NCBI RefSeq assembly: GCF_009192745.1
Contig: NZ_VTFV01000002.1
Span: 310,001-374,000, forward strand
Direction of reading: 5' to 3'
Origin: Arthrobacter citreus
GTDB lineage: Bacteria > Actinomycetota > Actinomycetes > Actinomycetales > Micrococcaceae
DNA: 64,000 nt
Part shown: piece by piece, positions 13,560-62,026 of the stretch
Position numbering within the stretch: the stretch's first letter is position 1
Layout: each line of letters opens with the position of its first letter
Notes under the pieces: generated by a model
Database searches by the model: none
Told to the model about the DNA's origin: nothing
What the model saw: the letters and a program-made list of their open reading frames with translations, nothing else
Position numbers and translations under genes: made by a program

Positions 13560-13583
13560 GGCTTTACGCTACGCCATCCAGTG

Positions 13584-13605
13584 CTGTACAGTCTAGACGG
13601 TACAG
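13584..13605. promoter_or_regulatory. Near-perfect 22 bp operator between tetR and the efflux gene
   Basis: The stretch starts CTGTACAGTC, is centred on TCTAGA and ends GGTACAG. It is symmetric at 20 of 22 positions. It lies in the divergent promoter gap, over the expected -35 of the tetR gene, which fits a TetR-family operator controlling both genes. Confidence 0.6.
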
Positions 13606-13697
13606 TAACGTACGGGTTGGCCCCGGCGGTTGCTGGCATGTCTTTTTAACCCACCAGTTTTCGGCAGGCGGAGCCCTGCCAAGTCCAAGGAGGAATT

Positions 13698-45959: not shown

Positions 45960-46934
45960 TTAGAAGCGCACGCTCCGGAGATACCGGTAGCCCACCTCTG
46001 CGGTCTGCAGTGGAGTGACATCCGGCTGGTCGTTCTCGACGATGTATTCCTTGGGCTGGTGTGCCCGGAAGATGCGCGGAAAATCGATGGTTCCGGTACC
46101 CAGGTCCGCAAAATCCCCGCTCGGTTCCCGATCCTTCACGTGATACTGGAGGACCTCCTGCGGAGCTTCCTGGATCGTGTCGATGGCGAACTGGACCGGG
46201 TCGGCAGCGCCGACTCCCACACCGCCCGTGACCGCCCAGTAAAGGTCCACTTCCAGATGGACCAGCTTCGGATCCAGGCGGCTGGTGAAGATGTCCCAGG
46301 GAGTCAGCCCGCCGCCAAGGTCCGTCGTGAACTCGTGGGCGTGGTTGTGGTAGCCGTACTTGATTCCGGCCCGGCGAACTACGGCTGCTTCGGCATTCAT
46401 CTGGTCTGCCCAGCGGTACCAGTCGTCTGCGCTGGTCGAAGCGAGGTACGGAACCACCATGTACGTCTGGCCGAGGGTGAGGGCATTGGAGATCTTGGCC
46501 TGCAGGGCTTCCGGCGTGGCGCTGATCCCTTCGTGGCTGGAGGAAGCCCGGATTCCCACTCGGTCCAGGGTTTTCCGCATGTCCTTGGCGGTGCGCCCAT
46601 ACAGGCCGGCCAGTTCCACCCGGTTGTATCCGTATTGGGCCAGCCGGGTGAAGTTCTTATCAATCTCCGCGCCGTTCATGATGGAGCGCAAGGTGTACAT
46701 CTGGATGCTGATTTGGCCCGGAGGGACCGGACGGTTGCCCTTGTGGCCGGGTTTTCCGTGGTGGTCGGGTTTGCCGTTCTTGCCGGGGTGGGCCACTGCA
46801 GGCACCGCCCCGAGTCCTGCGAGGCCGACGCCGACGCCGGCGGCAAATGCTCCGCGGATGAAATTGCGCCGGTCAACACCCTTCTTTTCAAGAGAACGGC
46901 TTAGCGCACCTGTTGCGTCAAATCCGAAGCACAT
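45960..46934 (-). CDS. Tat-exported sugar phosphate isomerase/epimerase-like protein
   Basis: A 324-residue TIM-barrel protein of the xylose-isomerase-like superfamily. A twin-arginine signal (DRRNFIRGAFAAG, ending AVPAVAH) is followed by a His/Gly/Lys-rich linker. The barrel begins ISIQMYTLRSIM and contains YGYHNHAHEF, VHLEVDLYWA and QYHVKDREP, the metal-binding residues of the family. GGAAGG precedes the ATG. Such secreted isomerases often accompany secreted sugar dehydrogenases in related genomes, like the one at 56157. The substrate is unknown. Confidence 0.88.
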   Translation of the reverse strand: MCFGFDATGALSRSLEKKGVDRRNFIRGAFAAGVGVGLAGLGAVPAVAHPGKNGKPDHHGKPGHKGNRPVPPGQISIQMYTLRSIMNGAEIDKNFTRLAQYGYNRVELAGLYGRTAKDMRKTLDRVGIRASSSHEGISATPEALQAKISNALTLGQTYMVVPYLASTSADDWYRWADQMNAEAAVVRRAGIKYGYHNHAHEFTTDLGGGLTPWDIFTSRLDPKLVHLEVDLYWAVTGGVGVGAADPVQFAIDTIQEAPQEVLQYHVKDREPSGDFADLGTGTIDFPRIFRAHQPKEYIVENDQPDVTPLQTAEVGYRYLRSVRF

Positions 46935-47314: not shown

Positions 47315-48514
47315 TCAGGCGTTGCTCAGGCCGGACACCATGGCGTCAATCCGCTGGGGAGACATGGCATGGTGAATCGCCAGCATGCTGGCGCCCAGTA
47401 CTCCGGCGTCGAGGCCGGAGCTGGAATGGACTATCTGCAGGTGCTGGGTGGCAAGCGGAATGGTGCGCGAATACACGGTCTCCCGGATCCCGGCGATAAA
47501 GTGCTCACCGGTCAGTGCCATGGATCCGCCAATGACTATCACCGAGGGGTTGATCAGGCTGATGCACGCGGAGAGGACGTCCCCCACGTCGCGCCCGGCC
47601 TGCCGCACGGCGTGGATGGCTTCGGTGCTTCCGGCGCGGACCAGCGCCACAACATCCTCGCTGCCGCTGGCATCAAGGCCCAGCTGCCGCAGCTTGGCGG
47701 CGATCGCCGGTCCGGAAGCGATGGCTTCCAGGCAATCGGTATTTCCGCAGTGGCAGGGCACTCCCGTGCCGCCGTGCACGCGGATGTGCCCAATGTCCCC
47801 GGCCACGCCGTCTGCCCCGCGCTGGAGCATTCCGCTGGAGACGATGCCGGAGCCGATCCCGGTGGCAACCTTGACGAACAGCAGGTCATCCACCTCCGGC
47901 CAGGCCATATTCCGCTCGCCCAGGGCCATGATGTTCACATCGTTGTCGACCAGCACGGGGACGTGGAACTGCGACTGCAGGAATCCGGGCACGTCGTAGG
48001 CGTTCCAGCCCGGCATGATGGGCGGATTGATGGGGCGTCCGGTGCGGTGTTCCACAGGCCCGGGCAGCCCGATGCCCACCGCCAGAAGGTCTTCGGGCGA
48101 CCGCCCGGTCTCGGCGAGCAGCTCGGAGCCGATTTCCACCACGGCTTCGAGGACGGCCTCCGGCCCCAGGGTAATTTCCAGGGCCCGTGCGGACTGGGAC
48201 AGCAGGTGGCCGGTCAGGTCGGTGACGGCCACCTGGAGGTGCGATGCTCCGATGTCCACGCCCAGCACAACCCGGCTGCCGGCCTTTAGCGCGATGCGTG
48301 AGGAGGGGCGGCCGCCCGTGGAGACGGCGTCTTGGACAAATCCCACGAGTCCCAGGTCCATAAGCGCTTCGATCCGGAGAGTGACTGTGGAACGCGCCAG
48401 TCCCATCTGCTCCGCCAGCTCGGATCTGGTCCTGGGCTTCCCGTCGCGAAGGATTTGGAAGAGCTCGCTCGCTCCGGATGAGGCCAGCCCGCTGACGTTA
48501 CTTATGTCACTCAC
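47315..48514 (-). CDS. ROK-family transcriptional regulator (divergent from the ebo-type operon)
   Basis: A 399-residue ROK repressor. The winged helix (SELAEQMGLARSTVTLRIEALMDLGLV) is near the N-terminus. The sugar-kinase-like body has GVDIGASHLQVAVTDL, the zinc site CHCGNTDCLE preceded by GDIGHIRV, and LINPSVIVIGGS. The usual effector of ROK regulators is a sugar or sugar phosphate. It is divergent from the inositol-phosphate-synthase-like gene, so it is the natural candidate repressor of the ebo-type operon. The GTG start has a weak ribosome site. Confidence 0.9.
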   Translation of the reverse strand: MSDISNVSGLASSGASELFQILRDGKPRTRSELAEQMGLARSTVTLRIEALMDLGLVGFVQDAVSTGGRPSSRIALKAGSRVVLGVDIGASHLQVAVTDLTGHLLSQSARALEITLGPEAVLEAVVEIGSELLAETGRSPEDLLAVGIGLPGPVEHRTGRPINPPIMPGWNAYDVPGFLQSQFHVPVLVDNDVNIMALGERNMAWPEVDDLLFVKVATGIGSGIVSSGMLQRGADGVAGDIGHIRVHGGTGVPCHCGNTDCLEAIASGPAIAAKLRQLGLDASGSEDVVALVRAGSTEAIHAVRQAGRDVGDVLSACISLINPSVIVIGGSMALTGEHFIAGIRETVYSRTIPLATQHLQIVHSSSGLDAGVLGASMLAIHHAMSPQRIDAMVSGLSNA

Positions 48515-48838
48515 CGACTCATTACAGCACAGATGGCGACGGAACTATTGACTTCAATCACTCCGCGTGCCATAGGTCCACCTTGGTTCGGTTGATGCGT
48601 CTCCAGCCGTCCCGCAAACCTGAGGCGCTGGGGATCATCACAACTCCCACGCTGGATTGTAAACATTCGACTGAATGACGGTACCGCTAAGCACAGATAT
48701 ATCGGAATACCTCATAAGTCCGTTGTTGCCTGACATTACCTATGTTAGGTTCCCTGTGACGGGCGTCTCACCCGAAGGTTTCGAATCCTGGGTCTGGCGC
48801 AGGCCCGCCGACGGTTCGTAAAACTTCGAGGAGGAAGT
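48515..48838. promoter_or_regulatory. Divergent promoter region of the ROK gene and the ebo-type operon
   Basis: A 324 bp gap. On the plus strand TTGTTG (48723-48728), 17 bp, TAGGTT (48746-48751) is a credible promoter, giving a leader of about 80 bases. A small inverted repeat CATTC-GACT-GAATG (48664-48677) lies upstream. Before the TTG start is AGGAGG, a strong ribosome site. No riboswitch fold was recognised. Confidence 0.4.
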
Positions 48839-50104
48839 TTGATCAGGGACACCCATGAGGGACTGAAAGCTGAGCCGGGCGGAAGAGCCGCTTCCGGCGG
48901 CCCGCCTGCCGGCGGCAGTTACGGAAAGACGGGCATCTGGCTCATCGGAGCACGGGGCTCGGTGGCAACGACGGCGGTGACGGGCCTGGCAGCCATCGCA
49001 TCACGCCTGGTGAAACCACTGGGGTGCGTCACCGAACAGGACGCCTTCCACGGCGTCAGCCTCCCGGATTACGCAGACCTGGTGGTAGGCGGCCATGACA
49101 TCAGCGGTGTTTCAATCCTCAAACGGGCAGAGAAACTTGCCGAGGCCGGGATGATTCCCGGGCATCTGCTTGAATCCGTCCGGTCCCAGCTCCAGGACGC
49201 TGACGGGCGGGTGCGTCCCGGGTACGATCCCGCCGGTGCCCCGGAACCACAGTCCGAAGCCATAAGGCGGCTGTCCGGAGACATCCTTGCGTTCAAGGAA
49301 GCGCACGGGCTGCGCCGGGTGATTGTCCTGGATGTCGCTTCCACGGAAGCGCCGCCGGTCCAGCTCGACGAATACTCGGATCCCGGTCTCCTGGAAAAAG
49401 CCCTCAACGATCCCGAACGGTCTGTGCTTCCCGCCAGCTCGGTAGCTGCCGGCGCGGCGGTCCTGGCCGGATCTCCGTATATATGTTTCACCCCGTCAAC
49501 GGCCCTCAACATTCCTGCCCTGTATGAACTCGCGGGAGCCTCCCGGGTGCCCACGGCAGGACAGGACGGCAAGACGGGCCAAACCTGGCTGCGCTCGGTG
49601 CTGGCCCCGGCACTTTCTGCACGCGGACTCCACGTCCTTTCCTGGGCCGGCACCAACCTGCTGGGCGGTGGAGACGGAGCCACTCTGGCAGACAGCCGGG
49701 CGGTCTCGGGAAAGCTGCTGTCGAAGAACCGGGGACTGCGGGAGCTCACCGGCGGCGCTGTCACGCCGCTGCACATTGACAACGTGCCCGACCTGGGTGA
49801 AACCAAGGTGGCGTGGGACCACATCCATGTGGAAGGGTTCCTGGGTTCCCGGCTGACCATCCAGACAACCTGGACCGCCTACGATTCAATGCTGGCCGCT
49901 CCCATGGTGCTGGACCTCGCCCGCCTGATGGCGCTCGCGGACGCCGCCGGAGAAACAGGCCATGTTGGCGCCCTCGGGTTCTTCTTCAAGGATCCCTGGG
50001 GCAGCGCGGAGCATTCCTTCGCGCAGCAGGCAGGCAACCTGGTGCAGTGGGCGCACGAAGCCAGCAGCAGGATCCCCTCCACGACGGGGGGTGGCAGGCA
50101 GTGA
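48839..50104 (+). CDS. Inositol-3-phosphate-synthase-like sugar phosphate cyclase
   Basis: A 421-residue protein of the myo-inositol-1-phosphate synthase family. The NAD-binding GIWLIGARGSVATT is at residues 33-45. Later motifs are LDVASTEAPP, GQDGKTGQTWLRSVLAP (catalytic Lys region), LSWAGTNLLGGGDGATLAD and VAWDHIHVEGFLGSRLTIQ. The family turns glucose-6-phosphate into inositol-3-phosphate by NAD-dependent cyclisation. It starts with TTG after AGGAGG and ends in a GTGA overlap with the UbiA gene. The length and its place heading an ebo-type operon suggest a dedicated paralogue rather than the housekeeping Ino1. Confidence 0.88.
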   Translation: MIRDTHEGLKAEPGGRAASGGPPAGGSYGKTGIWLIGARGSVATTAVTGLAAIASRLVKPLGCVTEQDAFHGVSLPDYADLVVGGHDISGVSILKRAEKLAEAGMIPGHLLESVRSQLQDADGRVRPGYDPAGAPEPQSEAIRRLSGDILAFKEAHGLRRVIVLDVASTEAPPVQLDEYSDPGLLEKALNDPERSVLPASSVAAGAAVLAGSPYICFTPSTALNIPALYELAGASRVPTAGQDGKTGQTWLRSVLAPALSARGLHVLSWAGTNLLGGGDGATLADSRAVSGKLLSKNRGLRELTGGAVTPLHIDNVPDLGETKVAWDHIHVEGFLGSRLTIQTTWTAYDSMLAAPMVLDLARLMALADAAGETGHVGALGFFFKDPWGSAEHSFAQQAGNLVQWAHEASSRIPSTTGGGRQ

Positions 50105-50982
50105 GCGCGGCCGGTGATTACCTGGAGCTGGTACGGGCCCCGGCCGTCCTGACCGTGCTGGGGGACACGGTGGCCGGCGGCGCTGCCGCCGGGCGTGCCC
50201 TCAGCGGGCGGCGGGCACTGATGCCGCTGGCCAGCGCCTGCCTGTATGCCGGCGGAATGGCCCTGAACGACTACGCGGACAGGGATCTCGACGCCGAGGA
50301 GCGGCCCGAGCGGCCCATCCCTTCCGGGCGGATTAGCGCGCGCAGTGCCCTGGCCGCGGCATCTGCCCTCACGGCCGCGGGCCTTGGCTTGTGCGCTGCG
50401 GCCGGCGGCCGCGGTGCCCTGGTTGTGGGAGTTCCACTTGCCCTCTCAATCTGGACATACGACCTTGTGGCCAAGAACCATGCCCTGCCGGGCGCCGTCT
50501 CGATGGGAACCTGCCGGGCCCTTGACGTCCTGATGGGCGCGGGCGCCGGACATCTCAGGCAGGCGCTGGGGGCAGCAGGAATCATGGGGGGCCATACGGC
50601 AGCCGTAACCCTCCTCTCCCGCGGAGAGGTTAACGGCACGGACGCCGCCACCGCTTCCGGCGCCGCGGCAACCACAGGGTTCCTGGCCGCATCGGTTGTC
50701 GCAGGGACCGCAGGGCCGCCGGCCAGGACGCTCGCCGTCGTGGGAGCCGCAGCCGCCTATGCCCTGAGATGCGCACCGGCTCAGATGCAGGCAGCGCGCA
50801 ACCCGGCCGCCGGCAACGCACTGAACGCGACTAAGGCAGGCATCCGTGCGATGGTTCCGCTGCAGGCAGCGCTCACGCTGCGCCATGGGCAGCCGGTGGC
50901 CGCAGCCGCGCTGATCGGCGTGGACATCGTGGGCAGGATCATCCGTTCCCGCCCCAGGGGCAGGAGAGTGAGCGAGTCATGA
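50101..50982 (+). CDS. eboC: UbiA-family prenyltransferase (EboC-like)
   Basis: A 293-residue membrane protein with seven to nine hydrophobic segments. The diphosphate-binding motif is NDYADRDLD (residues 56-64), followed by ERPIPSG as in UbiA proteins. A second polar motif YDLVAKNH follows. It should attach a polyprenyl group to a small polar acceptor at the membrane. GTG overlaps the preceding stop (GTGA), and the stop overlaps the next ATG. A polyprenyl diphosphate synthase gene at 59824 could supply its donor. Confidence 0.88.
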   Translation: MSAAGDYLELVRAPAVLTVLGDTVAGGAAAGRALSGRRALMPLASACLYAGGMALNDYADRDLDAEERPERPIPSGRISARSALAAASALTAAGLGLCAAAGGRGALVVGVPLALSIWTYDLVAKNHALPGAVSMGTCRALDVLMGAGAGHLRQALGAAGIMGGHTAAVTLLSRGEVNGTDAATASGAAATTGFLAASVVAGTAGPPARTLAVVGAAAAYALRCAPAQMQAARNPAAGNALNATKAGIRAMVPLQAALTLRHGQPVAAAALIGVDIVGRIIRSRPRGRRVSES

Positions 50983-52502
50983 CCACCACACCGTCTGCAC
51001 CGCCGTTCAGCATCGGGTACGGCACCAACGGGTTCACGGACCATCCGCTGCCGGCGGCGCTGGAGCTGCTGCACGAATGTGGCTACGGCGCCGTGGCCCT
51101 CACCCTTGGCCATCCGCACCTGGACCCGTTCGCCCCGGATCTGGATGCCCGCCTCAGCCGGCTGCGCCGCAGGCTCGATGAACTGGATTTCCGGGTGGTG
51201 ATCGAAACCGGAACCAGGTTCCTCTTGAACCCCCGGGAAAAGCACCGTCCGGCGCTGGTTGATGACGACGCCGCGGCCCGCGTGGATTTCCTGCACCGTG
51301 CGGTGGACATCGCAGCAGCGTTGAAGGCCGAATGCGTGTCCTTCTTTTCCGGCATCCTGCCGCCCGGCACCGGTCCTGAAACCGCATGGCACCGTCTCGA
51401 AGAGCGCGTGGGCGAAGTGCTGGGCCATGCTGCGGAGAAGGGGGTTGTGCTGGCGCTTGAACCGGAACCCGGCATGTTCGTGGAGACTGTCGCGCAGGCG
51501 CTTGAGCTCCGGGCCCGGCTCGGTGAGCCGGAAGGGCTCCGGCTCACCGTGGACATTGGACACTGCGTGGTGGTGGAACCTGGCGGGATCCGGGGTGCGC
51601 TGATGGAGGCCGGGCCGCTGCTGGCTAACGTCCAGCTGGATGACATGCGGTCCACTGCACATGAGCACCTGCCGTTCGGGGAGGGGGAGGTCGACCTGCC
51701 GCTGGCCCTTGCCACACTGGCGGAACTGGAATACCGCGGAGTGGCCGCCGTCGAACTCCCCCGGCACTCCTTTGACGCGCCGGGCCTGGCCTCGCGGAGC
51801 ATGGCTGCGCTCCAGGGCGCCTGGCAGGACGTGCAGGCAGAACGCGTGGTGGAACAGTGGCTGCAGCAGGCCGTAGCGCGTGTCGCTGCGGATCCCGGTG
51901 CGCTTCCGGCAGTCTTCGCGTCAGCAGGCCGCAGTGTTGGCCGGAGCCCGCTGAAGCCTGCCGCCGATCCCACGGCAGTGCTGCATGGCAGCAGGAGCGA
52001 CTACGCCCGCAGCGAGTTCCTCCGGCGGCTGGCCGGGTTCCTGACTCCCGCGGAGCTGGCAGAAACTCTGGTGGAGCTTTACAACGGGGGCGACTCCGCA
52101 GAACGGCGCGGAGTGCTCCGGGGTCTGGGAGCGCTGGCCAGCCGCGAGCCGGGTCTTCCTGCTCCGGTGGTCGCGGCGGGCCTGCAGGTGACGGCGGAGG
52201 CGCTCCGGACCAACGAGACCGGACTGGTTGCCGCCGCTGCCGGCCCCTTCGCCGCCGCCCACCTTGACCAGCACAACTGGCGGCATGCAGTCCTGAAACT
52301 CATCTTCATGGGCGTCAGCATTGCCGCCGTGACCGACCTCAGTCACCGTGCCGACGACGAACTGGCGCGCATGGCTGCCGACTTCGCCGCCGAACGGCGG
52401 GCAGCGGGCCGCCCTGTACCGGACGACGTCGTCCTCCTGCTGCGCAGCGCAGCCGGCAGTGCAGCCACCCCCTCCACATCCCTCAAGGAGTCCCAGGCAT
52501 GA
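50979..52502 (+). CDS. eboA: Sugar phosphate isomerase domain fused to EboA domain
   Basis: A 507-residue fusion. Residues about 10-275 form a xylose-isomerase-like TIM barrel (GYGTNGFTDHPLPAALELL, VVIETGTRFLLNPREKHRP, LALEPEPGMFVE, TVDIGHCVVVEPGG, VQLDDMRSTAHEHLPFGEGE). Residues about 340-495 match the EboA domain: LYNGGDSAERRGVLRGLGAL, NWRHAVLKLIFMGVSIAAV and ELARMAADFAAERRAAGRPVPDDV. EboA is normally a separate protein of unknown activity. The fusion predicts that the two act together. Both ends overlap the neighbouring genes by four bases. Confidence 0.85.
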   Translation: MTTTPSAPPFSIGYGTNGFTDHPLPAALELLHECGYGAVALTLGHPHLDPFAPDLDARLSRLRRRLDELDFRVVIETGTRFLLNPREKHRPALVDDDAAARVDFLHRAVDIAAALKAECVSFFSGILPPGTGPETAWHRLEERVGEVLGHAAEKGVVLALEPEPGMFVETVAQALELRARLGEPEGLRLTVDIGHCVVVEPGGIRGALMEAGPLLANVQLDDMRSTAHEHLPFGEGEVDLPLALATLAELEYRGVAAVELPRHSFDAPGLASRSMAALQGAWQDVQAERVVEQWLQQAVARVAADPGALPAVFASAGRSVGRSPLKPAADPTAVLHGSRSDYARSEFLRRLAGFLTPAELAETLVELYNGGDSAERRGVLRGLGALASREPGLPAPVVAAGLQVTAEALRTNETGLVAAAAGPFAAAHLDQHNWRHAVLKLIFMGVSIAAVTDLSHRADDELARMAADFAAERRAAGRPVPDDVVLLLRSAAGSAATPSTSLKESQA

Positions 52503-53377
52503 GAATTTTCGACCCGCACATCCACATGACCAGCCGCACCACCGACGACTACGCGGCGATGTATGAAGCCGGGGTCCGCGCCCTGGTTGAGCCCGCCTTC
52601 TGGCTGGGGCAGCCGCGGACCAGCGTCGGATCCTTCATCGACTACTTCGATGCCCTCCTGGGCTGGGAGCGGTTCAGGGCAGCGCAGTACGGAATCCGGC
52701 ACCACGCGACCATCGCCCTGAATCCCAAGGAAGCGAACGATCCCAGGTGCGTGCCTGTCCTGGATGAGATTCCGCGCTATCTCGCCAAGGAAGGTGTGGT
52801 TGCCGTTGGCGAGATCGGCTTCGATTCAATGACCCCGGCTGAGGACAAGGCGTTCACCAGGCAGCTGGAGCTGGCTGCCGAGCACAACCTCCCGGCACTG
52901 GTGCACACCCCGCACCGGGAGAAACTCCGGGGCACGCAGCGGACACTGGACATAGTCCGGGAGTCGAACCTTGACCCGTCCATGGTTGTGGTCGACCACC
53001 TGAACGAAACCAACGTGGCCATGGTGAAAGACGCGGGCGCCTGGATGGGCTTTTCCATCTACCCGGACACCAAAATGGACGAAGAACGCCTGGTTGCCAT
53101 CCTGCACGAGTACGGAACCGCCCAAGTGCTGGTTAATTCGGCTGCAGACTGGGGCAAATCCGACCCGCTGAAGACAGCGAGCACGGCAAAAGCCATGCTT
53201 GCGGGCGGATTCTCGGAAGAGGACGTGGACCGCGTCCTCTGGCGGAATCCGGTGGAGTTCTACGGCCAAAGCGGCGCCCTGATCCTGGATCCGATTCCCG
53301 GCTTCGACGAAGTGGAACTCGGCGGAGCCGGAGCCACGTTCGAGGGAAACTCGCTGCTGCGGGGGGTCCGTGCCTGA
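52499..53377 (+). CDS. eboB: TatD-family metal-dependent hydrolase (EboB-like)
   Basis: A 292-residue TIM-barrel hydrolase of the TatD type. The metal motif is FDPHIHM (His7, His9), with a Glu in AVGEIGFDS, His in LVHTPHREK, and VVVDHLNETN. An Asp in VNSAADWGKSD completes a typical set. TatD relatives are nucleases or amidohydrolase-like enzymes; the ebo member's substrate is unknown. The start overlaps eboA (ATGA), and the stop overlaps eboE (TGATG). Confidence 0.88.
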   Translation: MRIFDPHIHMTSRTTDDYAAMYEAGVRALVEPAFWLGQPRTSVGSFIDYFDALLGWERFRAAQYGIRHHATIALNPKEANDPRCVPVLDEIPRYLAKEGVVAVGEIGFDSMTPAEDKAFTRQLELAAEHNLPALVHTPHREKLRGTQRTLDIVRESNLDPSMVVVDHLNETNVAMVKDAGAWMGFSIYPDTKMDEERLVAILHEYGTAQVLVNSAADWGKSDPLKTASTAKAMLAGGFSEEDVDRVLWRNPVEFYGQSGALILDPIPGFDEVELGGAGATFEGNSLLRGVRA

Positions 53378-54522
53378 TGCGGCTTTCCTACTGCACCAAC
53401 GTCCATCCGGCAGAGGACCTGGACGGGGTGATCCGCCAGCTTCGTGAATACGCCGGTCCGGTCCGCCGCCGCGCGGGGCTGGACGTCCTGGGCGTGGGGC
53501 TTTGGCTGCCTGCCGGGCTGGCTGGCCGGTTGGCCGACAGTGACACGGATCTGGCACTGCTGCGGGAGGTCCTGTCCGAGCAGGGGCTGCAAATCCATAC
53601 TCTGAATGCGTTTCCCTATGGCGGGTTCCACAATGAGGTAGTCAAGACCGACGTCTACATCCCCACCTGGGCGCAGCGCGAGCGGCTGCAGTACACGCTG
53701 GAGTGCGCCCACGTCCTTGCCGCACTGCTTCCCGACGGCGTTCCCGGGTCCATTTCCACGCTGCCGCTGGCCTGGCGCACTCCCTGGGGCAGGGAGAACG
53801 ACGAGGCAGCCGTGCGAGCGTTCGCCATCCTGTCCGACGGGCTCAGGACGCTGAAGGAGTACACCGGGAAAACGGTCCGGATCGCCGTGGAACCTGAACC
53901 GGGCTGTGTCCTGGATACCGTCTCGGATGTCACCGCGTGGCTCGCAGCCGGGGTCCCTCGAGGGATTGATCCCGAGTACATCGGCCTGTGCGTCGACACC
54001 TGCCACCTGGCAGTCTCCTTCGCGGACCCGGCGGCGGCCGTCCGGGGCATCGGAACGGCCGGCCTGCGCGTCGTGAAGGTCCAGGCATCCGCCGCACTGC
54101 ACGTGTCCGCGCCCTCCGGAAACTCGGCCCGCCGTGCGCTCGAAGCGTTCGCGGAGCCGAGGTACCTGCACCAGGTCAGGGAACTGGAGCCCGGCGGAAC
54201 GGTCCTGATGGCGGACGACCTGCCGCAGGCGCTCGGCGAGCTTCCGGGCAGGGGGCCATGGCGGATCCATTTCCACATGCCGCTGCACCTGGTGCCGGAG
54301 CATCCCCTGGAGACGACGGCAGATGTGCTCCAAGCGGCCGTGGCCGAAGTGAGCACCCTGCCGTACGCGGAGGACGTGCACCTGGACATCGAAACGTACA
54401 CCTGGAGCGTCCTGCCCGGGAACCACACGGACCTGGTTGAAGGGATTTCCGGGGAGATCGCCTGGGCGCAATCCCATCTGCTGGCCCACGCTCGGTCCTG
54501 GCCCGCGTTGCCCCAAACCTAA
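53377..54522 (+). CDS. eboE: EboE, metabolite traffic/isomerase-like TIM-barrel protein
   Basis: A 381-residue protein. LSYCTNVHPAEDLDGVI, IHTLNAFPYGGFHNEVVK followed by TDVYIPTW, VRIAVEPEPGCVLDTV and IGLCVDTCHLAVSFADP are diagnostic of EboE. FHMPLHLV and HLDIETYTWSVLP also fit. The fold is xylose-isomerase-like, with several conserved His, Glu and Asp for metals. In cyanobacteria the ebo genes are linked to delivery of a scytonemin precursor to the periplasm; the chemistry of EboE is unsettled. It follows eboB without a gap and lies nine bases before eboF. Confidence 0.92.
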   Translation: MRLSYCTNVHPAEDLDGVIRQLREYAGPVRRRAGLDVLGVGLWLPAGLAGRLADSDTDLALLREVLSEQGLQIHTLNAFPYGGFHNEVVKTDVYIPTWAQRERLQYTLECAHVLAALLPDGVPGSISTLPLAWRTPWGRENDEAAVRAFAILSDGLRTLKEYTGKTVRIAVEPEPGCVLDTVSDVTAWLAAGVPRGIDPEYIGLCVDTCHLAVSFADPAAAVRGIGTAGLRVVKVQASAALHVSAPSGNSARRALEAFAEPRYLHQVRELEPGGTVLMADDLPQALGELPGRGPWRIHFHMPLHLVPEHPLETTADVLQAAVAEVSTLPYAEDVHLDIETYTWSVLPGNHTDLVEGISGEIAWAQSHLLAHARSWPALPQT

Positions 54523-54531
54523 GGAGAGCCC

Positions 54532-55932
54532 TTGAAACCGGTATTGCTGCTCGACGTCGTGGGACTCACGGGACAGTCACTGCGCCACATGCCCCATTTG
54601 TCCAGGCTCGCTGCCGGGGGATGGTCGTCCGAACTGGCCACCGTCCTTCCGGCGGTGACCTGCACTGTGCAGTCCACCATGCTGACCGGCCTGCCGCCGT
54701 CCGAGCACGGGATTGTTGGCAACGGCTGGTACTTCCGTGAACTCGGGGAAGTGTTCCTCTGGCGCCAGCACAACAAGCTGGTCAGCGGGGAGAAAATCTG
54801 GGAGAGCGCCCGCCGCAAGGAACCGGACTACCGGGCAGGCAACGTCTGCTGGTGGTACGCCATGGGCATGTCCACGGACCTGACGGTCACGCCCCGCCCG
54901 ATTTACCACGCGGACGGCAGGAAATCCCCGGATGCGTACATCCGGCCCTCGGAACTGCATGACGAACTGGTGGCCAGGTTCGGCGAGTTTCCGCTGTTCC
55001 AGTACTGGGGGCCCACTGCGGCCATCGCGTCGACCCAGTGGATTGCGGAGTCCACCAGGCACATCATGCGGACCCAGGCACCCGACCTCCTGATGGCCTA
55101 CCTGCCGCACCTCGACTACGACCTCCAGCGCTTTGGGCCCAGCCATCCCCGGGCAGCCGCCGCGGCCGCAGAACTCGACGCCGCACTGGTTCCGCTGCTG
55201 GGGGAGGCCGTGTCCCGCGGATACGCGGTGATAGCCGTATCTGAATACGGCATTGAAGAGGCGCACCTGCCGGTGGACATCAACCGCGTCCTGCGCAGGG
55301 AGGGCCTGCTGGAGGTCTATGTGCAGGACGGAAAAGAGCAGCTGGACACGTGGACGTCCCGCGCCTTTGCGGTTGCGGATCACCAGGTGGCACATGTTTA
55401 CGTTTCGAACCCCGGTGACGTCGCCCGGACGGCCGCGATCCTGAAGGAAACCAGCGGAGTTGACGAAGTCCTGGACCGGAACGCGCAGGCGAAGTACGGG
55501 CTGGACCATGAGCGGTCCGGTGAGCTGGTGGTGATTGCCGAGCCCGGCGCCTGGTTTACCTACTATTTCTGGCTGGACGATGCACGTGCGCCCGAGTACG
55601 CGCGCGGCGTGGACATCCACAGGAAGCCCGGCTACGACCCGAGTGAGCTGTTCTTCAACCCGGAGGACCGGCTGGCCAAGGCCAAGGCCGGCCTGAACCT
55701 GGTGCGGAAGAAGGCAGGCCTGCGCTACGCCATGAGTACGGTGCCGCTCGACGCCCGCCATGTGCGCGGTACCCACGGCCGGCTTCCGGGGTCCCGGGAG
55801 AGCACGCCGCTGGTCATCTCTTCCGAGCAGGCCATGCCGCCGTTCGCCGAAGAACTGATGCGGCTCGGGAAACAGATTCCGGCAGCCGCGGTGAAATCGC
55901 TTGTGCTGCAGACCCAGGGGTTGCCTGAATGA
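54532..55932 (+). CDS. eboF: Type I phosphodiesterase/nucleotide pyrophosphatase family (EboF-like)
   Basis: A 466-residue alkaline-phosphatase-superfamily protein. LLLDVVGLT holds the first metal Asp and PAVTCTVQSTMLTG the nucleophile (Thr43 likely). PPSEHGIVGNGWYFRE, YLPHLDYDLQRFGP and AVADHQVAHVYV (His ligand) complete the pattern. It should cleave a phosphodiester or pyrophosphate, perhaps releasing a product from a nucleotide or prenyl phosphate carrier. TTG start with AAGGAGAG. No signal peptide is seen, so action is probably cytoplasmic. It is the last gene of the operon, followed by a hairpin. Confidence 0.9.
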   Translation: MKPVLLLDVVGLTGQSLRHMPHLSRLAAGGWSSELATVLPAVTCTVQSTMLTGLPPSEHGIVGNGWYFRELGEVFLWRQHNKLVSGEKIWESARRKEPDYRAGNVCWWYAMGMSTDLTVTPRPIYHADGRKSPDAYIRPSELHDELVARFGEFPLFQYWGPTAAIASTQWIAESTRHIMRTQAPDLLMAYLPHLDYDLQRFGPSHPRAAAAAAELDAALVPLLGEAVSRGYAVIAVSEYGIEEAHLPVDINRVLRREGLLEVYVQDGKEQLDTWTSRAFAVADHQVAHVYVSNPGDVARTAAILKETSGVDEVLDRNAQAKYGLDHERSGELVVIAEPGAWFTYYFWLDDARAPEYARGVDIHRKPGYDPSELFFNPEDRLAKAKAGLNLVRKKAGLRYAMSTVPLDARHVRGTHGRLPGSRESTPLVISSEQAMPPFAEELMRLGKQIPAAAVKSLVLQTQGLPE

Positions 55933-56003: not shown

Positions 56004-56156
56004 CTCCGCCCTTGTATTCCGGGAGTTGTAGAAAGTTTTTAGAAAGGAGGCCTTTGTTTTTTCAAACCACTAGCGGTTCCTGAAAGCCTCAATTAGCGTT
56101 CTATCTGACCTGACTCCGGCTGGTCCGGGTCCTCAATGGCGAGAAGAGAGAGAGCG

Positions 56157-58352
56157 ATGACAGTCAAAAGACACGGGTTAGCGCAATCACCCGGGCATCA
56201 GGCGGATGCCAAAACCTCCGCCAGGCGTACACGGCGGACCGGGGCAGCACTTGCACTGGCCGCGCTGATGGCAGTTTCCCTGGCAGCAGTTCCGGCGCAG
56301 GCTAAACCGAAGCCCGCTCCGCCCACAGCCCCGCCGGACTCCGCGTTCCAGAAGGTGACGCTTAATGACTACCCGGGCGAGCCCGTTGACCTTGCCGTGC
56401 TCCCCAACAGCGACGTCCTGCACACCACCCGCCAGGGCGAAGTGTGGCTCAATGACGCCGAGTCCGGTCTGAACACCCTGGCCGCAACGGTGGACGTCTA
56501 TGAGCATGACGAAGAAGGCCTGCAGAGCATTGCCGTTGACCCGAACTTCGGAAAGAAGGGCAACAACTGGGTCTACATGTACTACTCCCCGCCGCTGGAC
56601 ACGCCGGTGGATGACCCCGCTACACCGGGCATCAACGAGGGCGATGCGCCAACAACCGGCACGGCTGAGGACTTTGAGCCGTTCAAGGGATATCTCCAGC
56701 TCTCACGGTTCCAGTTCGATGGAAGCACCATCAACATGGACAGTGAACAGCGGATGCTGCAGGTCCCGGTGGACCGCGGAACCTGCTGCCACGTCGGCGG
56801 AGATATTGTTTTCGACGCCAAGGGCAACCTGTATCTCTCCACGGGTGACGACACCAACCCCTTCTCCTCCGGAGGCTACACTCCGATCGATGAGCGGCCG
56901 GAAGTCAACCCGGCGTTCGATGCGCAGCGCACTTCCGCGAACACGAACGACCTCCGCGGAAAGGTGCTTCGCATAACCCCCACGAAGGACGGCGGCTACA
57001 CGATTCCGAAGGGCAACCTCTTCGCTCCGGGAACACCGCTGACGCGTCCCGAGATTTATGTGATGGGGCTCCGCAATCCGTTCCGCATTGAATTGAACCA
57101 AAAGACCGGTGAGCTCTTTATTGGGGACTACTCTCCCGACGCCGGCACGGCGGACCCGCTGAGGGGCCCGGCTGGAACCGGCAAGTGGGCAGTGGTCACC
57201 GAACCGTCCAACTACGGATGGCCGTACTGCGCCACGGCCGAGCTGCCGTACGTGGACTACGACTTTGCCACGGGAACGTCCGGAGAACCGTTCAACTGCG
57301 CTGCGCCCGTGAACGAGTCGCCCAACAACACCGGGATGCGCGAGCTGCCGCCGGTGGCACAGCCCCAGGTCTGGTACTCCTACGGGCCGTCTCCGGAGTT
57401 CCCGGAACTTGGAACCGGCGGAATCGGTCCCATGGCCGGTCCGGTCTACCACTTCGACAAGAAGGCCAGCAAGGGACGGGCGCCCGTTGCCTGGCCCGAG
57501 TACTACGACGGAAAGTCCTTCCTGTACGAGTGGACCCGCGACTACATCAAGGCCATGACCACCAAGGGCGGCGCGCTCGTCTCCATTGAAGACGTTGTGG
57601 ATTCCCTCATCGTGGACAACCCCATGGACATGGAGTTCGGCCCCAACGGTGCGCTCTACGTGCTGGAATACGGCGACGGGTACTTTGGCGAGAACCCGGA
57701 CGCCCAGCTCTCCCGCATCGACTTCATTGGCGAGGGCGGAAACCACACGCCGGTCGCCGTTGCCACCGGCACCCCCACAGTGGGCATGTCACCGCTCACC
57801 GTCCAGTTCTCCAGTGCGGGAACCACGGACGCGGACGGCGACAGGCTGCGTTACGCCTGGGACTTCAACTCCGATGGAGTGGTGGACTCGCGCGAGCCCA
57901 ATCCCACCTACACCTACGGGGAAATCGGAACGTACACGGCGAACCTCCAGGTGACAGACCAGGGCGGGAAGCACCGGGGCAAGTACTCCTCGGCAGAGGT
58001 GTTCATTGAAGTGGGCAACCAGGCGCCGGTGGTGGAGTTCGTGACTCCCGTTGCCGGACAGTCCTTCCAGTTCGGTGACACTGTCAGCTACGAAGTCCGG
58101 GTGACGGATGACCAGCCGGTTGACTGCTCGCGTGTCCAGGTGACCTACATCCTGGGCCATGACAACCACGGCCACCCGCAGACCACCACCACCGGCTGCA
58201 CCGGATCCATCGTCACCACAGTGCCTGAGGGGCATGATCCCGCTACCGACAATCTGTCGGGCGTTTTCAGCGCCTCCTACACTGACTCGGGCGACGGCGG
58301 CACAGGTCCGCTCACGGGAACCGCGGAAGTTGTGCTGGTCCCCGGCAACTAA
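56157..58352 (+). CDS. Secreted PQQ-type sugar (glucose/sorbosone) dehydrogenase with PKD domain
   Basis: A 731-residue secreted protein. The N-terminus has basic residues, then a hydrophobic stretch (AALALAALMAVSLAAVPAQA) as a Sec-type signal. Residues about 60-510 form a GSDH-type beta-propeller (GEPVDLAVLPNSDVLHTTRQGEVWL, DEEGLQSIAVDPNF, RGTCCHVGGDIVFD, VMGLRNPFRIELNQKTGELFIGDYSPDA). A PKD domain follows (VQFSSAGTTDADGDRLRYAWDF), then a C-terminal beta domain. It oxidises or binds an extracellular sugar; the propeller may need PQQ. GAGAGAG precedes the ATG. Together with the Tat-exported isomerase it brackets the ebo-type operon. Confidence 0.9.
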   Translation: MTVKRHGLAQSPGHQADAKTSARRTRRTGAALALAALMAVSLAAVPAQAKPKPAPPTAPPDSAFQKVTLNDYPGEPVDLAVLPNSDVLHTTRQGEVWLNDAESGLNTLAATVDVYEHDEEGLQSIAVDPNFGKKGNNWVYMYYSPPLDTPVDDPATPGINEGDAPTTGTAEDFEPFKGYLQLSRFQFDGSTINMDSEQRMLQVPVDRGTCCHVGGDIVFDAKGNLYLSTGDDTNPFSSGGYTPIDERPEVNPAFDAQRTSANTNDLRGKVLRITPTKDGGYTIPKGNLFAPGTPLTRPEIYVMGLRNPFRIELNQKTGELFIGDYSPDAGTADPLRGPAGTGKWAVVTEPSNYGWPYCATAELPYVDYDFATGTSGEPFNCAAPVNESPNNTGMRELPPVAQPQVWYSYGPSPEFPELGTGGIGPMAGPVYHFDKKASKGRAPVAWPEYYDGKSFLYEWTRDYIKAMTTKGGALVSIEDVVDSLIVDNPMDMEFGPNGALYVLEYGDGYFGENPDAQLSRIDFIGEGGNHTPVAVATGTPTVGMSPLTVQFSSAGTTDADGDRLRYAWDFNSDGVVDSREPNPTYTYGEIGTYTANLQVTDQGGKHRGKYSSAEVFIEVGNQAPVVEFVTPVAGQSFQFGDTVSYEVRVTDDQPVDCSRVQVTYILGHDNHGHPQTTTTGCTGSIVTTVPEGHDPATDNLSGVFSASYTDSGDGGTGPLTGTAEVVLVPGN

Positions 58353-58461: not shown

Positions 58462-59697
58462 TTACTGGGCTGCCGGCCGCTGCAGGAAACCGGCCGGGTC
58501 CGCCAGGAGCGGTTCGAAAACCAGCTCCGCGGCTCCTATCAGGATGGGGTCGTCGCCCAGCGGAGCAAGCTCGATCCTCACGTTTTCCCATGGCCCGCGG
58601 GTTCCGGAGCCGGCCAGCGCTTCTTCCAGGGCCCCCGGTGCCGCCCGGACCAGGATGCGAAGGAAACCGCCCAGGACTACCACTGAGGGGTTGATAAGGC
58701 TCATCACCGATTTCAGGCCCACTGCCAGCAGCCCGATTTGCTGCTGGATGACCGAGCGCAGCCGCTCGTTGGCGGACCCGTCCCGGAGTTTCTCCAGGAG
58801 TGCTTCCTCAAGGTCTTCGATTTCGCCGGACGGCAGGCCCACCGCCTCAATCAAAGCCGCCCTGGTGACCTCCGCTTCCAGGCAGCCGAAGGAACCGCAG
58901 GTACAGGCCGCTCCGCCGGTGCGTACGTGGGTGTGCCCAAGCTGTCCGGCAAATCCGGTGGCCCCGCGGATCAGGCGGCCGTCGCTGATGACGCCGCCGC
59001 CGATTCCGCTGGCCCCGCCGTACAGGTACACCAGGTCTGCCACGCCCCGCCCGGCACCAAACGCGGCTTGGGCGCGGGCGCCCACAACGGCGTCGTTCGC
59101 TGTGAAAACCGGCAGCCCCATGGCCTCGCCCAGGCGGGAGCTCAACGGTTCGTCCTGCCATCCCAGGTGCGGCGCGTCGATGACTGTTCCGTCATCAGGG
59201 CGCACCAGCCCGGGTATCGCCAGGCCCACGCCCATGACCCGGTGGCCGTCCGGCAGGGAGGTGCGCATGCCCGCGTAGATGGCGGACACGATGTTGACCA
59301 CCTCAACCCCGGACGGTGCCCGGACAGTATGGAAACGGACAGTATTAACGATGTGCCCGCCGAGCGAGACCAGGGCGACGCTGACGACGTCGACATCCGG
59401 GTTGACGGCCAGCGCCAGGGCGGCGGGGCTTGGCTCGATCATGATGCTGGGGCGGCCGTGCTGCTGCGCTGGATCCAGGTCGCTTTCAACGGCCAGGCCC
59501 AGCTGGGACAGCTCACCGACCAGGGCCGCAATCGTGGAACGGTTCAACCCGGTGGTGCGGGTGAGCTGGGCACGGGAAATCCCGCCGGTGGAGTGGACAA
59601 GCTGCAGGACAGTCGAGAGATTGTGCTGGCGGCTTGAATCCCGGTTGCTGCCCAGATACGTGCGGGCAGGGGTCCTGCCCAAGGCTGAGTCAGTCAT
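58462..59697 (-). CDS. ROK-family transcriptional regulator
   Basis: A 411-residue ROK repressor. The HTH is GGISRAQLTRTTGLNRSTIAALVGELSQLGL. The kinase-like body has the zinc site CTCGSFGCLE preceded by GQLGHTHVRTGG, GASGIGGGVI and LINPSVVVLGGF. It is distinct from the ROK protein at 47315. It lies just downstream of the polyprenyl synthase gene on the same strand, and may control the adjacent sugar importer or dehydrogenase. The ATG at 59697 is chosen over a start five codons upstream. No clear ribosome site. Confidence 0.9.
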   Translation of the reverse strand: MTDSALGRTPARTYLGSNRDSSRQHNLSTVLQLVHSTGGISRAQLTRTTGLNRSTIAALVGELSQLGLAVESDLDPAQQHGRPSIMIEPSPAALALAVNPDVDVVSVALVSLGGHIVNTVRFHTVRAPSGVEVVNIVSAIYAGMRTSLPDGHRVMGVGLAIPGLVRPDDGTVIDAPHLGWQDEPLSSRLGEAMGLPVFTANDAVVGARAQAAFGAGRGVADLVYLYGGASGIGGGVISDGRLIRGATGFAGQLGHTHVRTGGAACTCGSFGCLEAEVTRAALIEAVGLPSGEIEDLEEALLEKLRDGSANERLRSVIQQQIGLLAVGLKSVMSLINPSVVVLGGFLRILVRAAPGALEEALAGSGTRGPWENVRIELAPLGDDPILIGAAELVFEPLLADPAGFLQRPAAQ

Positions 59698-59804
59698 TCG
59701 GCACGGCCGCATTCCACGCAGACATATTCTTCCCCCGTAGTAGGTCCTTCTGGCGGACGGGCCAGAACCGGACTAGTTTCCCATAGTATTCCCGCTCCAG
59801 GCCG

Positions 59805-59823: not shown

Positions 59824-60903
59824 TCAGGGGGAGTGAAGCCCGGCGACGAGCGAGTGCATGAGGCTCTCCAGGCTCTCCGCCAGGGCCGCCGGAATCTCTT
59901 CCCCCAGTTGTTTCACGGCAGCATGCGCATGTTCGGATGCCAGCTGCACTGCATGGTCCCGGGCGCCGCACTCCGTGAGCAGGTCCCGGACCTTCTGCAC
60001 CTCTGCCGCTGTCATCCCGGCCCCGCCCATGAGCTCCGAAATCCGGCCCCACTGCGGTTTGGAGGCTGCGTAGGAGAGCAGGACAGTCCGTTTGCCTTCC
60101 CGGAGATCCCCGCTGTTCGTCTTCCCCGTGTCCGCTTCGTCCCCAAATGTCCCGCGGACATCGTCGGCAATCTGGTAGGCAATTCCGGCGTCGCGTCCGA
60201 AGGCAGCCAGCGTTGCAGCCGCGGGGGCTGCGGCGCCTGCCAGCACCGCACCGGCCTGGAGCGGTGCCTCGAAAGAGTAGACGGCGGTCTTCCTGCGGGC
60301 CACCGTCCGCACCTCCCCGGGTGAGGGCATTTCAACTGCCCGGGCGAACTCGACGTCCAGGAGCTCCCCGCCGATTGAAGAGAAGACGGCGTGGTCCAGG
60401 ATCGCACTGAGCTCGGCCCGGACCCCGCTGTCCGCTGCGACGCTTTCATGGAGGCGGTACGCCCCGGCAAGGACCAGGTCTCCGGCCAGCAGTCCGGCAG
60501 CCATGCCGGCATGCTGCGCAGCTTCCTCGGTGGCGCCCGCACGCCGCGACTTGTTCGCGTAGTGCCCGGAGAGGTTGGGAACACCGTGCCTGACTACGTC
60601 CCTGTCAATCACGTCGTCGTGGATGAGGAACGCGTTATGCAGGAGTTCATAGACGGCGGCGAGCCGCGCAGCGGCCGCCGGGTCCCTTCCGCCCAGCTGG
60701 CGGTAGGCGAGCATGAGGAGTCGCGGACGGAACCGCTTGCCGCAGGCAGCGTTCCGTTCAATGGCTTCCCAGAGGCTGAGGTAGGCCGGATGGACGGAGA
60801 CCGCCCGGAGCTTGGCATCCGTGAAGAACTGGTCCAGGACGTCTTCAACCAGTCCCAGCCCGGGGCCGGTTTCCACTGCGTACTCTGCGTCAAGGAATTT
60901 CAC
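59824..60903 (-). CDS. Polyprenyl (geranylgeranyl-type) diphosphate synthase
   Basis: A 359-residue trans-prenyltransferase. The first Asp-rich motif is DDVID (residues 96-100) in NAFLIHDDVIDRD, and the second lies in AYQIADDVRGTFGDE. GKRFRPRLLM is the substrate Lys/Arg loop. The residue five before the first motif is Ala, which allows products of C20 or longer (inference). The GTG start is just downstream of the sugar ABC permease, with 64 bp between them. It is probably co-transcribed with the importer genes and may feed the EboC-like prenyltransferase. Confidence 0.9.
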   Translation of the reverse strand: MKFLDAEYAVETGPGLGLVEDVLDQFFTDAKLRAVSVHPAYLSLWEAIERNAACGKRFRPRLLMLAYRQLGGRDPAAAARLAAVYELLHNAFLIHDDVIDRDVVRHGVPNLSGHYANKSRRAGATEEAAQHAGMAAGLLAGDLVLAGAYRLHESVAADSGVRAELSAILDHAVFSSIGGELLDVEFARAVEMPSPGEVRTVARRKTAVYSFEAPLQAGAVLAGAAAPAAATLAAFGRDAGIAYQIADDVRGTFGDEADTGKTNSGDLREGKRTVLLSYAASKPQWGRISELMGGAGMTAAEVQKVRDLLTECGARDHAVQLASEHAHAAVKQLGEEIPAALAESLESLMHSLVAGLHSP

Positions 60904-60967
60904 TGGTGCGCGCCCTCTGCTTCGTTCTTGATGCCCGGCTGGTGTGCCCGCGGCTGTCCGCGGGCGG

Positions 60968-62026
60968 TTATCCGCCCCGTTTGGACGGCCGCTTGGTAGC
61001 GAAGCGCTGCTGCAGCAGGACCGCGACAACGATGATCGTGCCCTTGACGATGGCCTGGACGGAAGTGTCCAGGTTGTTCTGCGTGAAGATGTTGGTGAGG
61101 GTGGCGAAAATCAGCACGCCCAGGACGGTGCCCGTGATGGTGCCGCGGCCGCCGATCAGCAGGGTGCCGCCCACCACAACGGCGGCAATCGCGTCGAGTT
61201 CCAACAGCAGGCCGTGGGTCGAGGTGCCGGCCGTTGTCCGGCCAAGCATCATGACTGCGCCGATGCCGGCGAAAAGTCCGGACAGGACATACAGCGCTAC
61301 CAGGTGCCGCTTGACCTTGATGCCGGCAAGCCGGGCGGCTTCGCGGTTGCCGCCGATGGCAACGGTCCGCCGCCCAAACGTGGTGCGGTTCAGCAGGAAC
61401 CAGCCCACGGCGGCGGCCAGGATGAAAATCCACACGAGGACCGGAATGCCGAGGAACTCACCGCGCATGGCCTTGGAGAAGTCCCGATTGGTGACGATCT
61501 GCGTGCTGCGCCCTGAGATGAGCTCAGCCAGGCCGCGTGCCCCCACCAGCGTCGCGAGTGTCGCGATGAAGGCAACCACGTTTCCGTAGGCGATCACCAC
61601 GCCGTTGAGCAGTCCGACTCCCGCGCCGACGGCAAGAGCCACCAAAACCATCAGCAGCCACGACGACTGCGTTGCCGCGAGCTGGACGCTGGTGAGGCTG
61701 GCGACCACGGTAGCCAGCCCCAGGACCGAACCCACGGACAGGTCGATGCCCCCGGCCGTAATGACAAAGGTGACGCCAATGCTGACGACGCCAAGGATGG
61801 ACGCGTACCGCAGGATGGTTAGCCAGTTCTCCACATTGAGGAACCGGTCACCGCTGGTGATGGCACCGACGGCGACGAGCAGGCCCAGAGCGACGACGAG
61901 CCCAAGGCTGCGCCCGGCTGAACCACCCAGGGCATTCTTCAGCGGGTTGGTCCCGGAGGAGCTGCTGCTGCTGCCGCCCGGCGGGGTGTTGGTCGGATCA
62001 GCGACCGTGGTGTTTGGCTCGCTCAC
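60968..62026 (-). CDS. Ribose-type ABC importer permease (RbsC-like)
   Basis: A 352-residue membrane protein with eight to ten helices. GLAELISGRSTQIV, FGRRTVAIGGNREAARLAGI and GTLLIGGRGTITGTVLGVLI are RbsC-family signatures. The GTG start overlaps the ATPase gene stop (GTGA). It forms the pore of a CUT2 importer for a pentose, inositol-like or other sugar. The first 35 residues are polar and Ser/Thr/Pro-rich. Confidence 0.93.
   Translation of the reverse strand: MSEPNTTVADPTNTPPGGSSSSSSGTNPLKNALGGSAGRSLGLVVALGLLVAVGAITSGDRFLNVENWLTILRYASILGVVSIGVTFVITAGGIDLSVGSVLGLATVVASLTSVQLAATQSSWLLMVLVALAVGAGVGLLNGVVIAYGNVVAFIATLATLVGARGLAELISGRSTQIVTNRDFSKAMRGEFLGIPVLVWIFILAAAVGWFLLNRTTFGRRTVAIGGNREAARLAGIKVKRHLVALYVLSGLFAGIGAVMMLGRTTAGTSTHGLLLELDAIAAVVVGGTLLIGGRGTITGTVLGVLIFATLTNIFTQNNLDTSVQAIVKGTIIVVAVLLQQRFATKRPSKRGG

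Follow-up and report, generated by a model that had tools for sequence, protein, structure and literature searches.

We describe an actinobacterial form of the ebo gene cluster in which the cyclase EboD is missing and has probably been replaced in function by a myo-inositol-phosphate-synthase-type cyclase (MIPS). The case at hand is the stretch from 48839 to 55932 within a window of 64,000 nucleotides of Arthrobacter citreus (GCF_009192745.1, NZ_VTFV01000002.1, positions 310,001-374,000 of the forward strand); all positions refer to this window. By Pfam and NCBIfam matches its six coupled, same-strand genes encode MIPS, a UbiA-type prenyltransferase, a xylose-isomerase-like TIM barrel (XI) fused to EboA, EboB, EboE and EboF. 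As in the described eboA-F clusters (PMC5133447, PMC6282210), EboA, EboB, an EboC-like protein, EboE and EboF stand in one operon and their active-site residues are kept. Unlike those, the actinobacterial form lacks EboD, has MIPS and XI instead, and in some families carries EboA fused to XI. EboA, EboB, EboE and EboF occur together in the window; an EboC above the cut-off of model NF035940 and an EboD do not. The ebo cluster is already known, the lineage-wide MIPS-type variant is new. In our literature searches, with subscription papers outside their scope, actinobacterial ebo genes were mentioned and an exchange of EboD and MIPS was nowhere described.

Distribution of EboD and MIPS among ebo clusters

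A preliminary description of the stretch had claimed that EboD is missing. In the A. citreus genome (3.55 Mb, 100% complete) no EboD was found elsewhere either. The single member of the dehydroquinate (DHQ) synthase family scored 161 bits with the EboD profile, which is the level of AroB; true EboD proteins score about 570-630 bits.

Actinobacterial loci were drawn by EboE from evenly sampled genomes, a less biased sample than the named scan reported below. Within the class, 98 of 395 sampled genomes had EboE; the figures for the phylum and the genus were 19 of 396 and 8 of 29, respectively, and ebo is therefore an accessory cluster. We fetched 119 actinobacterial EboE loci, mostly of 20 kb, and classified them. 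Including the window, 95 had an adjoining MIPS, one (L029, from another class) had EboD and none had both. The MIPS-type loci were spread over 15 families, typically with the gene order MIPS-C-(XI)A-B-E-F. Because of this recurrence the arrangement is not due to chance. The remaining loci comprised EboE genes not belonging to an ebo cluster, clusters lying at the end of a contig and clusters without a linked MIPS.

The named scan was run with an EboE alignment headed by a sequence of the EboD type and yielded 80 loci, mostly from Bacteroidota and Cyanobacteriota. It favours EboD-type clusters by design and shows that EboD clusters occur without MIPS, not how frequent the types are. EboD was present in 74 of the 80 loci, MIPS in none; together with L029 the EboD set comprises 81 loci, 75 of them with EboD. 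The preliminary description had considered that most ebo clusters might carry both cyclases. None of the 176 typed loci did. XI was found in 91 of the 95 MIPS-type loci compared with none of the 81 EboD-set loci. Since XI accompanies MIPS, the swap involves two genes. As to the six EboD-set loci without EboD, those of Nostoc (L053) and Bryobacterales (L091) belong to genomes that carry EboD elsewhere, and three (L068, L070, L123) are contigs of metagenome-assembled genomes. The sixth, from Lewinella (L124), lacks both EboD and a linked MIPS; the only MIPS is that of a second, YcaO-containing cluster (see below).

Absence from the loci extended to the genomes. The EboD profile was run against 49 genomes, two of which stood outside the comparison, one without a linked MIPS (G419) and one with EboE alone (G452). 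EboD was absent from the 46 MIPS-type genomes, where the best match reached 173 bits, again the AroB level, compared with 591 bits in the EboD-type actinobacterium. Extra DHQ-synthase matches in five MIPS-type genomes were rejected as EboD (129-178 bits against 573-613 bits for EboD). Reciprocally, 20 of 28 EboD-set genomes had no MIPS domain at all. Each cluster type works without the cyclase of the other. In a tree of 198 EboE proteins a single branch (SH-aLRT 98) set the EboD-set sequences apart from all others, i.e. the cluster type changes once; this was a quick tree under a simple model, with long branches and compositional warnings.

Mutual exclusivity, reciprocal absence from the genomes, the single switch in the EboE tree, the conserved catalytic residues of MIPS and the unchanged residues of the other enzymes make it likely that MIPS functionally replaces EboD. 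The replacement had been proposed in the preliminary description and is well supported. What that interpretation had missed was the two-gene nature of the exchange, XI coming with MIPS, and its being a rule across actinobacteria.

The MIPS-type cyclase and the shared ebo proteins

The product of the first gene matched PF07994 (4.3e-45) and PF01658 (1.2e-26), in line with its initial assignment to the MIPS family, and no NCBIfam model, the Ino1 model TIGR03450 included. The closest solved structure in a PDB search was MIPS of A. fulgidus (5e-52). An AlphaFold model of the protein (pLDDT 87) had the MIPS fold, with TM scores of 0.82-0.89 to A. fulgidus MIPS (1u1i); BT1526 of Bacteroides (7nwr) has this fold too. 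Residues D243, N273, D279, K292, K296, K323, D349 and K384 aligned with D225, N255, D261, K274, K278, K306, D332 and K367 of the A. fulgidus enzyme, and all eight matched. These positions did not vary among 17 ebo MIPS, and among 92 their conservation was at least 93%. The PDB entries 3qw2, 3qvw and 3qvx are of the A. fulgidus enzyme mutated at N255, K278 and K367; D225, D261, K274, K306 and D332 presumably have a catalytic role. By domains, modelled fold and catalytic residues the protein qualifies as a myo-inositol-phosphate synthase (EC 5.5.1.4) of predicted activity.

The ebo MIPS and one solo relative formed a single clade (support 99), set against the related MIPS of Bacteroidota and of the second cluster; they lay far from housekeeping Ino1. 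Ebo MIPS shares its fold with A. fulgidus MIPS and BT1526 and keeps all compared catalytic residues of the former, yet it is a clade of its own, tied to ebo operons and of predicted function. The solo relative (L256, 1402-10496) lies beside a protein of 2193 residues as called, which contains a glucose/sorbosone dehydrogenase-like (GSDH) domain, and a sugar-isomerase TIM barrel. No ebo genes are nearby; the same genome (G504) also has a normal MIPS-type ebo cluster (L183).

Has the reaction of ebo MIPS changed, e.g. to a keto-inositol or a different ring, so that the product is a cyclitol other than inositol 1-phosphate? A separate clade without NCBIfam match would be compatible with this, as would the fact that XI follows MIPS in the ebo clusters and in the second cluster, as though a keto-cyclitol were its substrate. 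Further, Ari2 has the same fold and makes a five-membered cyclitol phosphate. However, all catalytic residues compared are those of A. fulgidus MIPS, and in fold ebo MIPS resembles this enzyme much more closely than it does Ari2 (TM 0.59-0.75). We consider a changed reaction unlikely.

Another possibility is that ebo MIPS merely supplies myo-inositol for phosphoinositides or mycothiol and that its position in the operon is incidental or reflects co-regulation. Its catalytic residues are like those of ordinary MIPS, and in five genomes of family f4 it is the sole MIPS. Against this, A. citreus possesses a second MIPS of the Ino1 type (4.6e-181 to Ino1 of M. tuberculosis), and a separate Ino1-type enzyme is also present in most other MIPS-type genomes. 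According to the preliminary description, replacement would be refuted if the cyclase were the cell's only inositol-phosphate synthase; in A. citreus it is not the only one, and the five f4 genomes differ in this respect. M. tuberculosis Ino1 (1gr0) shares the MIPS fold but is remote from ebo MIPS: it was absent among the PDB matches at E<=1e-3 and the TM scores were 0.55-0.69. Moreover, ebo genes have MIPS as their neighbour in 95 loci from 15 families, no EboD-set locus contains it, and its presence coincides with the lack of EboD. A mere supply of inositol is improbable.

The preliminary description had recognised EboA, EboB, EboC, EboE and EboF in six coupled genes. Coordinates, Pfam and NCBIfam matches and matches across cluster types confirmed this for EboA, EboB, EboE and EboF; the assignments of the EboC and EboA genes needed amendment. 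The UbiA protein scored 311 bits with the SCO3242 model NF045897 (cut-off 260) and 160.7 bits with the EboC model NF035940 (cut-off 250). As it passes the former and misses the latter, it is a sister of EboC that belongs to the SCO3242 family. PF01040 and the first Asp-rich motif NDxxDxxxD place it in the UbiA superfamily, and the EboC residues N56-D57-D60-D64, K125 and R139 are common to MIPS-type and EboD-type clusters. An unusual S173-x-x-E176-x-x-G179 takes the expected place of the second Asp-rich motif in both types, a placement that is our own reading of the alignment.

The EboA gene does encode an EboA domain (142.7 bits with NF035938, cut-off 50), fused to an AP_endonuc_2 TIM barrel (PF01261), i.e. 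XI. Such XI-EboA hybrids in Actinobacteria had been noted by Yurchenko et al. (PMC5133447). In our loci the fusion was confined to some families; it suggests physical cooperation of XI and EboA. Conserved acidic and His residues of XI are E163, D192, H195 and E259, which we take to be typical of metal-binding xylose-isomerase-like barrels. The predicted EboA structure (pLDDT 92.7) was all helical and HEAT/ARM-like. A fold identity closer than alpha-solenoid was discarded, the best Z of 11.8 being inside the common range of helical repeats.

EboB and EboF of the window matched no curated ebo model. Comparison of EboD-type cluster members with the proteins of the window or of L029 gave about 300-480 bits for EboB and about 510-650 bits for EboF. 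EboB residues H7, H9, E105, H136, H167 and D217 were conserved in both cluster types. In general, the strongly conserved, active-site residues of EboB, EboC, EboE and EboF were largely identical between the types (86-95 MIPS-type versus 71-78 EboD-type sequences). In EboF (54532-55932), residues 237-240 read SEYG in both. Related phosphodiesterases presumably carry a metal-binding D-H-G motif at this position; judged by its sequence, the metal site of EboF may be altered.

Operon layout, neighbouring genes and related loci

Genes 2 to 5 of the operon overlap the preceding stop codon by 1-4 bases and gene 6 starts 9 bases on. The TTG start of gene 1 at 48839 is preceded by AGGAGG at 48829-48834, which is conserved in 8 of 8 loci of the genus. 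For the prenyltransferase a start at 49813 was discarded in favour of 50101 with its GTGA overlap.

Table 1. Features of the ebo operon and its surroundings in the A. citreus window.
Feature	Position	Strand	Evidence
MIPS-type NAD-dependent sugar-phosphate cyclase, gene 1, TTG start	48839..50104	+	PF07994/PF01658
UbiA-superfamily prenyltransferase, SCO3242 family, sister of EboC	50101..50982	+	NF045897 over cut-off; GTGA overlap with MIPS stop
XI (residues ~1-300) fused to EboA alpha-solenoid (residues ~330-507)	50979..52502	+	PF01261 6.4e-37; NF035938 142.7 bits
EboB, TatD-like metal-dependent hydrolase	52499..53377	+	PF01026 2.9e-15; nearest PDB AF_1765 2e-28
EboE, TIM barrel	53377..54522	+	NF035939 416 bits, cut-off 250
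EboF, type I phosphodiesterase/nucleotide-pyrophosphatase-like	54532..55932	+	PF01663 1.2e-58
Conserved upstream block, promoter/operator candidate	48667..48756		Strong conservation in 8 loci of genus; flanking intergenic DNA diverged
Divergent ROK-family repressor, probable operon regulator	47315..48514	-	PF00480 1.2e-56 with HTH; divergent in genus loci L206-L212
Secreted GSDH with PKD domain	56136..58352	+	PF07995 2.4e-26, PF18911; visible signal sequence
Second ROK-family regulator	58462..59712	-	PF00480 3.1e-43
Polyprenyl diphosphate synthase, possible donor supply for prenyltransferase	59824..61029	-	PF00348 1.5e-43
Tat-signal TIM-barrel protein, weakly IolE-like	45960..46934	-	PF01261 2.9e-9; RRNFIRG signal; TIGR04379 33 bits, far below cut-off
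Sugar-type ABC transporter permease and ATPase, associated, not core	60968..63540	-	PF02653, PF00005

Several neighbours recur. GSDH was present in 64 of the 95 MIPS-type loci versus 3 of the 81 EboD-set loci. A polyprenyl diphosphate synthase adjoined 18 MIPS-type loci (families f1, f4, f7, f8, f16 and f96) and none of the EboD set; given the 4 such genes in the 3.55 Mb of the A. citreus genome, about 2 such loci were expected. A homologue of the weakly IolE-like TIM barrel was found in 55 of 99 loci, with a Tat-like signal by the twin-arginine pattern in 47 of the 55. ROK and ABC-transporter genes were frequent beside ebo loci, as was a ThuA/3-keto-disaccharide hydrolase. An export role of the ebo genes has been proposed in Nostoc (PMC6282210); the secreted neighbours fit such a role without proving it.

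The frequent ROK, sugar-type ABC transporter, secreted GSDH, ThuA/3-keto-disaccharide hydrolase and Tat-exported TIM-barrel genes could also indicate that the operon takes up and degrades a sugar or cyclitol from outside the cell and does not make a prenylated metabolite. We give this a low probability: MIPS is committed to biosynthesis, sugar catabolism offers no obvious role for a prenyltransferase, the polyprenyl synthase is linked in six families, and the core ebo genes also occur without these neighbours.

Relatives of ebo MIPS with an XI of the same family were also observed outside ebo loci (L255, 250-11029; L257, 1205-10772; L258, 8981-18932; L273, 1444-11011). This second cluster is conserved and additionally encodes a YcaO protein, a GT4 glycosyltransferase, a PIG-L deacetylase, a metallo-beta-lactamase-fold protein, a Gfo/Idh/MocA oxidoreductase, a methyltransferase and a weakly HD-like protein, and it was found in actinobacteria and in Lewinella (L273). 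The combination of GT4 and PIG-L recalls the mycothiol pathway, from which, by analogy, an inositol-like acceptor is likely, and the cluster looks like an unnamed inositol-glycoside pathway. In the literature searched, no paper combining its component families was found. The pairing supports the notion that XI acts downstream of the MIPS product.

A few further loci were unusual. In L174, an ebo cluster without a linked MIPS, sugar ABC transporter genes are followed by a Gfo/Idh/MocA oxidoreductase (13128-14303) and then immediately by the prenyltransferase; the only ebo-related MIPS of this genome sits in the YcaO cluster (L255). In two second ebo copies without MIPS, L026 (13104-15733) and L140 (13002-15622), the prenyltransferase is preceded by an FAD-dependent, amine-oxidase-like oxidoreductase, and both genomes keep a MIPS-type copy elsewhere. 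EboE homologues outside ebo clusters (L213-L224, L161, L190, L193, L204, L205) came from several actinobacterial families; many match the first 242 profile positions only.

Possible product of the actinobacterial clusters

Which metabolite could the clusters make? We favour, with moderate confidence, the explanation that MIPS and XI take the place of EboD in providing a cyclitol, which the UbiA/EboC enzyme prenylates. MIPS, as its catalytic residues suggest, would make inositol 1-phosphate, or a cyclitol phosphate close to it, from glucose 6-phosphate. XI, sometimes fused to EboA, and EboE may then isomerise or rework a keto or dephosphorylated form, and EboF and EboB, judged by their families, would act as metal-dependent hydrolases. 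The membrane-bound UbiA enzyme would add a prenyl chain to the cyclitol, supplied in some genomes by the adjoining polyprenyl-diphosphate synthase. The prenylated cyclitol may be a membrane-bound metabolite, or a carrier behind the export role of ebo in Nostoc. GSDH and the Tat-exported TIM barrel next door may act beyond the membrane, and the ROK repressors probably couple expression of the operon to sugar supply.

That the product is a prenylated cyclitol, taken by itself, is a tentative proposal. Prenylation of a cyclitol by EboC had been suggested in the preliminary description; with polyprenyl synthases beside MIPS-type clusters in six families it is plausible, albeit unproved. Several points weigh against our explanation. 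MIPS turns glucose 6-phosphate into a C6 ring phosphate. In relatives of EboD the substrate is sedoheptulose 7-phosphate, and the C7 ring is released without a phosphate (PMC5133447). As the two chemistries differ, the products must differ or converge by further steps. The sole EboC-type enzyme with an assay in the literature searched farnesylated quinoline acids in vitro, only aromatic acceptors having been tried (PMC9235831). For Nostoc, the role given to the ebo genes was export of the scytonemin monomer (PMC6282210). Ebo loci without an adjoining MIPS exist (L148, L043, L174 and the second copies L026 and L140), and in the literature searched no activity is reported for any actinobacterial ebo protein.

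In earlier work, Yurchenko et al. predicted that EboD makes a cyclitol; inositol was not mentioned (PMC5133447). The assayed enzyme, Ubi-297, is an EboC-type protein of an ebo cluster, and a figure of that paper includes ebo loci of Saccharomonospora (PMC9235831). The enzymes assayed there were from flavobacteria or Algoriphagus, i.e. from EboD-type clusters, unlike the MIPS-type clusters reported here. SCO3242 and SCO3243 of Streptomyces coelicolor are listed as genes of the CDA antibiotic cluster (PMC3610822). Like the operon described here, this pair of neighbouring gene numbers combines a transferase of the SCO3242 family with a 'myo-inositol phosphate synthase', although it was not recognised as ebo there. 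Our data suggest that both genes may belong to an ebo cluster, and they merit re-reading.

Ebo clusters occur in many bacterial phyla and in the plastids of some algae. Non-orthologous replacement of the only enzyme whose reaction can be predicted, while the rest is kept, is natural evidence that a sugar-derived carbocycle is needed. The search for the product, otherwise open to any metabolite, is thereby narrowed to prenylated cyclitols, with Streptomyces and relatives as tractable hosts in which assays of MIPS, labelling with isotopes of inositol or glucose and deletion of single genes are routine. Conceivably, though this is our most tentative suggestion, the actinobacterial ebo cluster makes a new class of prenylated inositol-derived lipid, a membrane-bound metabolite or carrier, the need for which would have been met twice by unrelated cyclases, by EboD or by MIPS together with XI.

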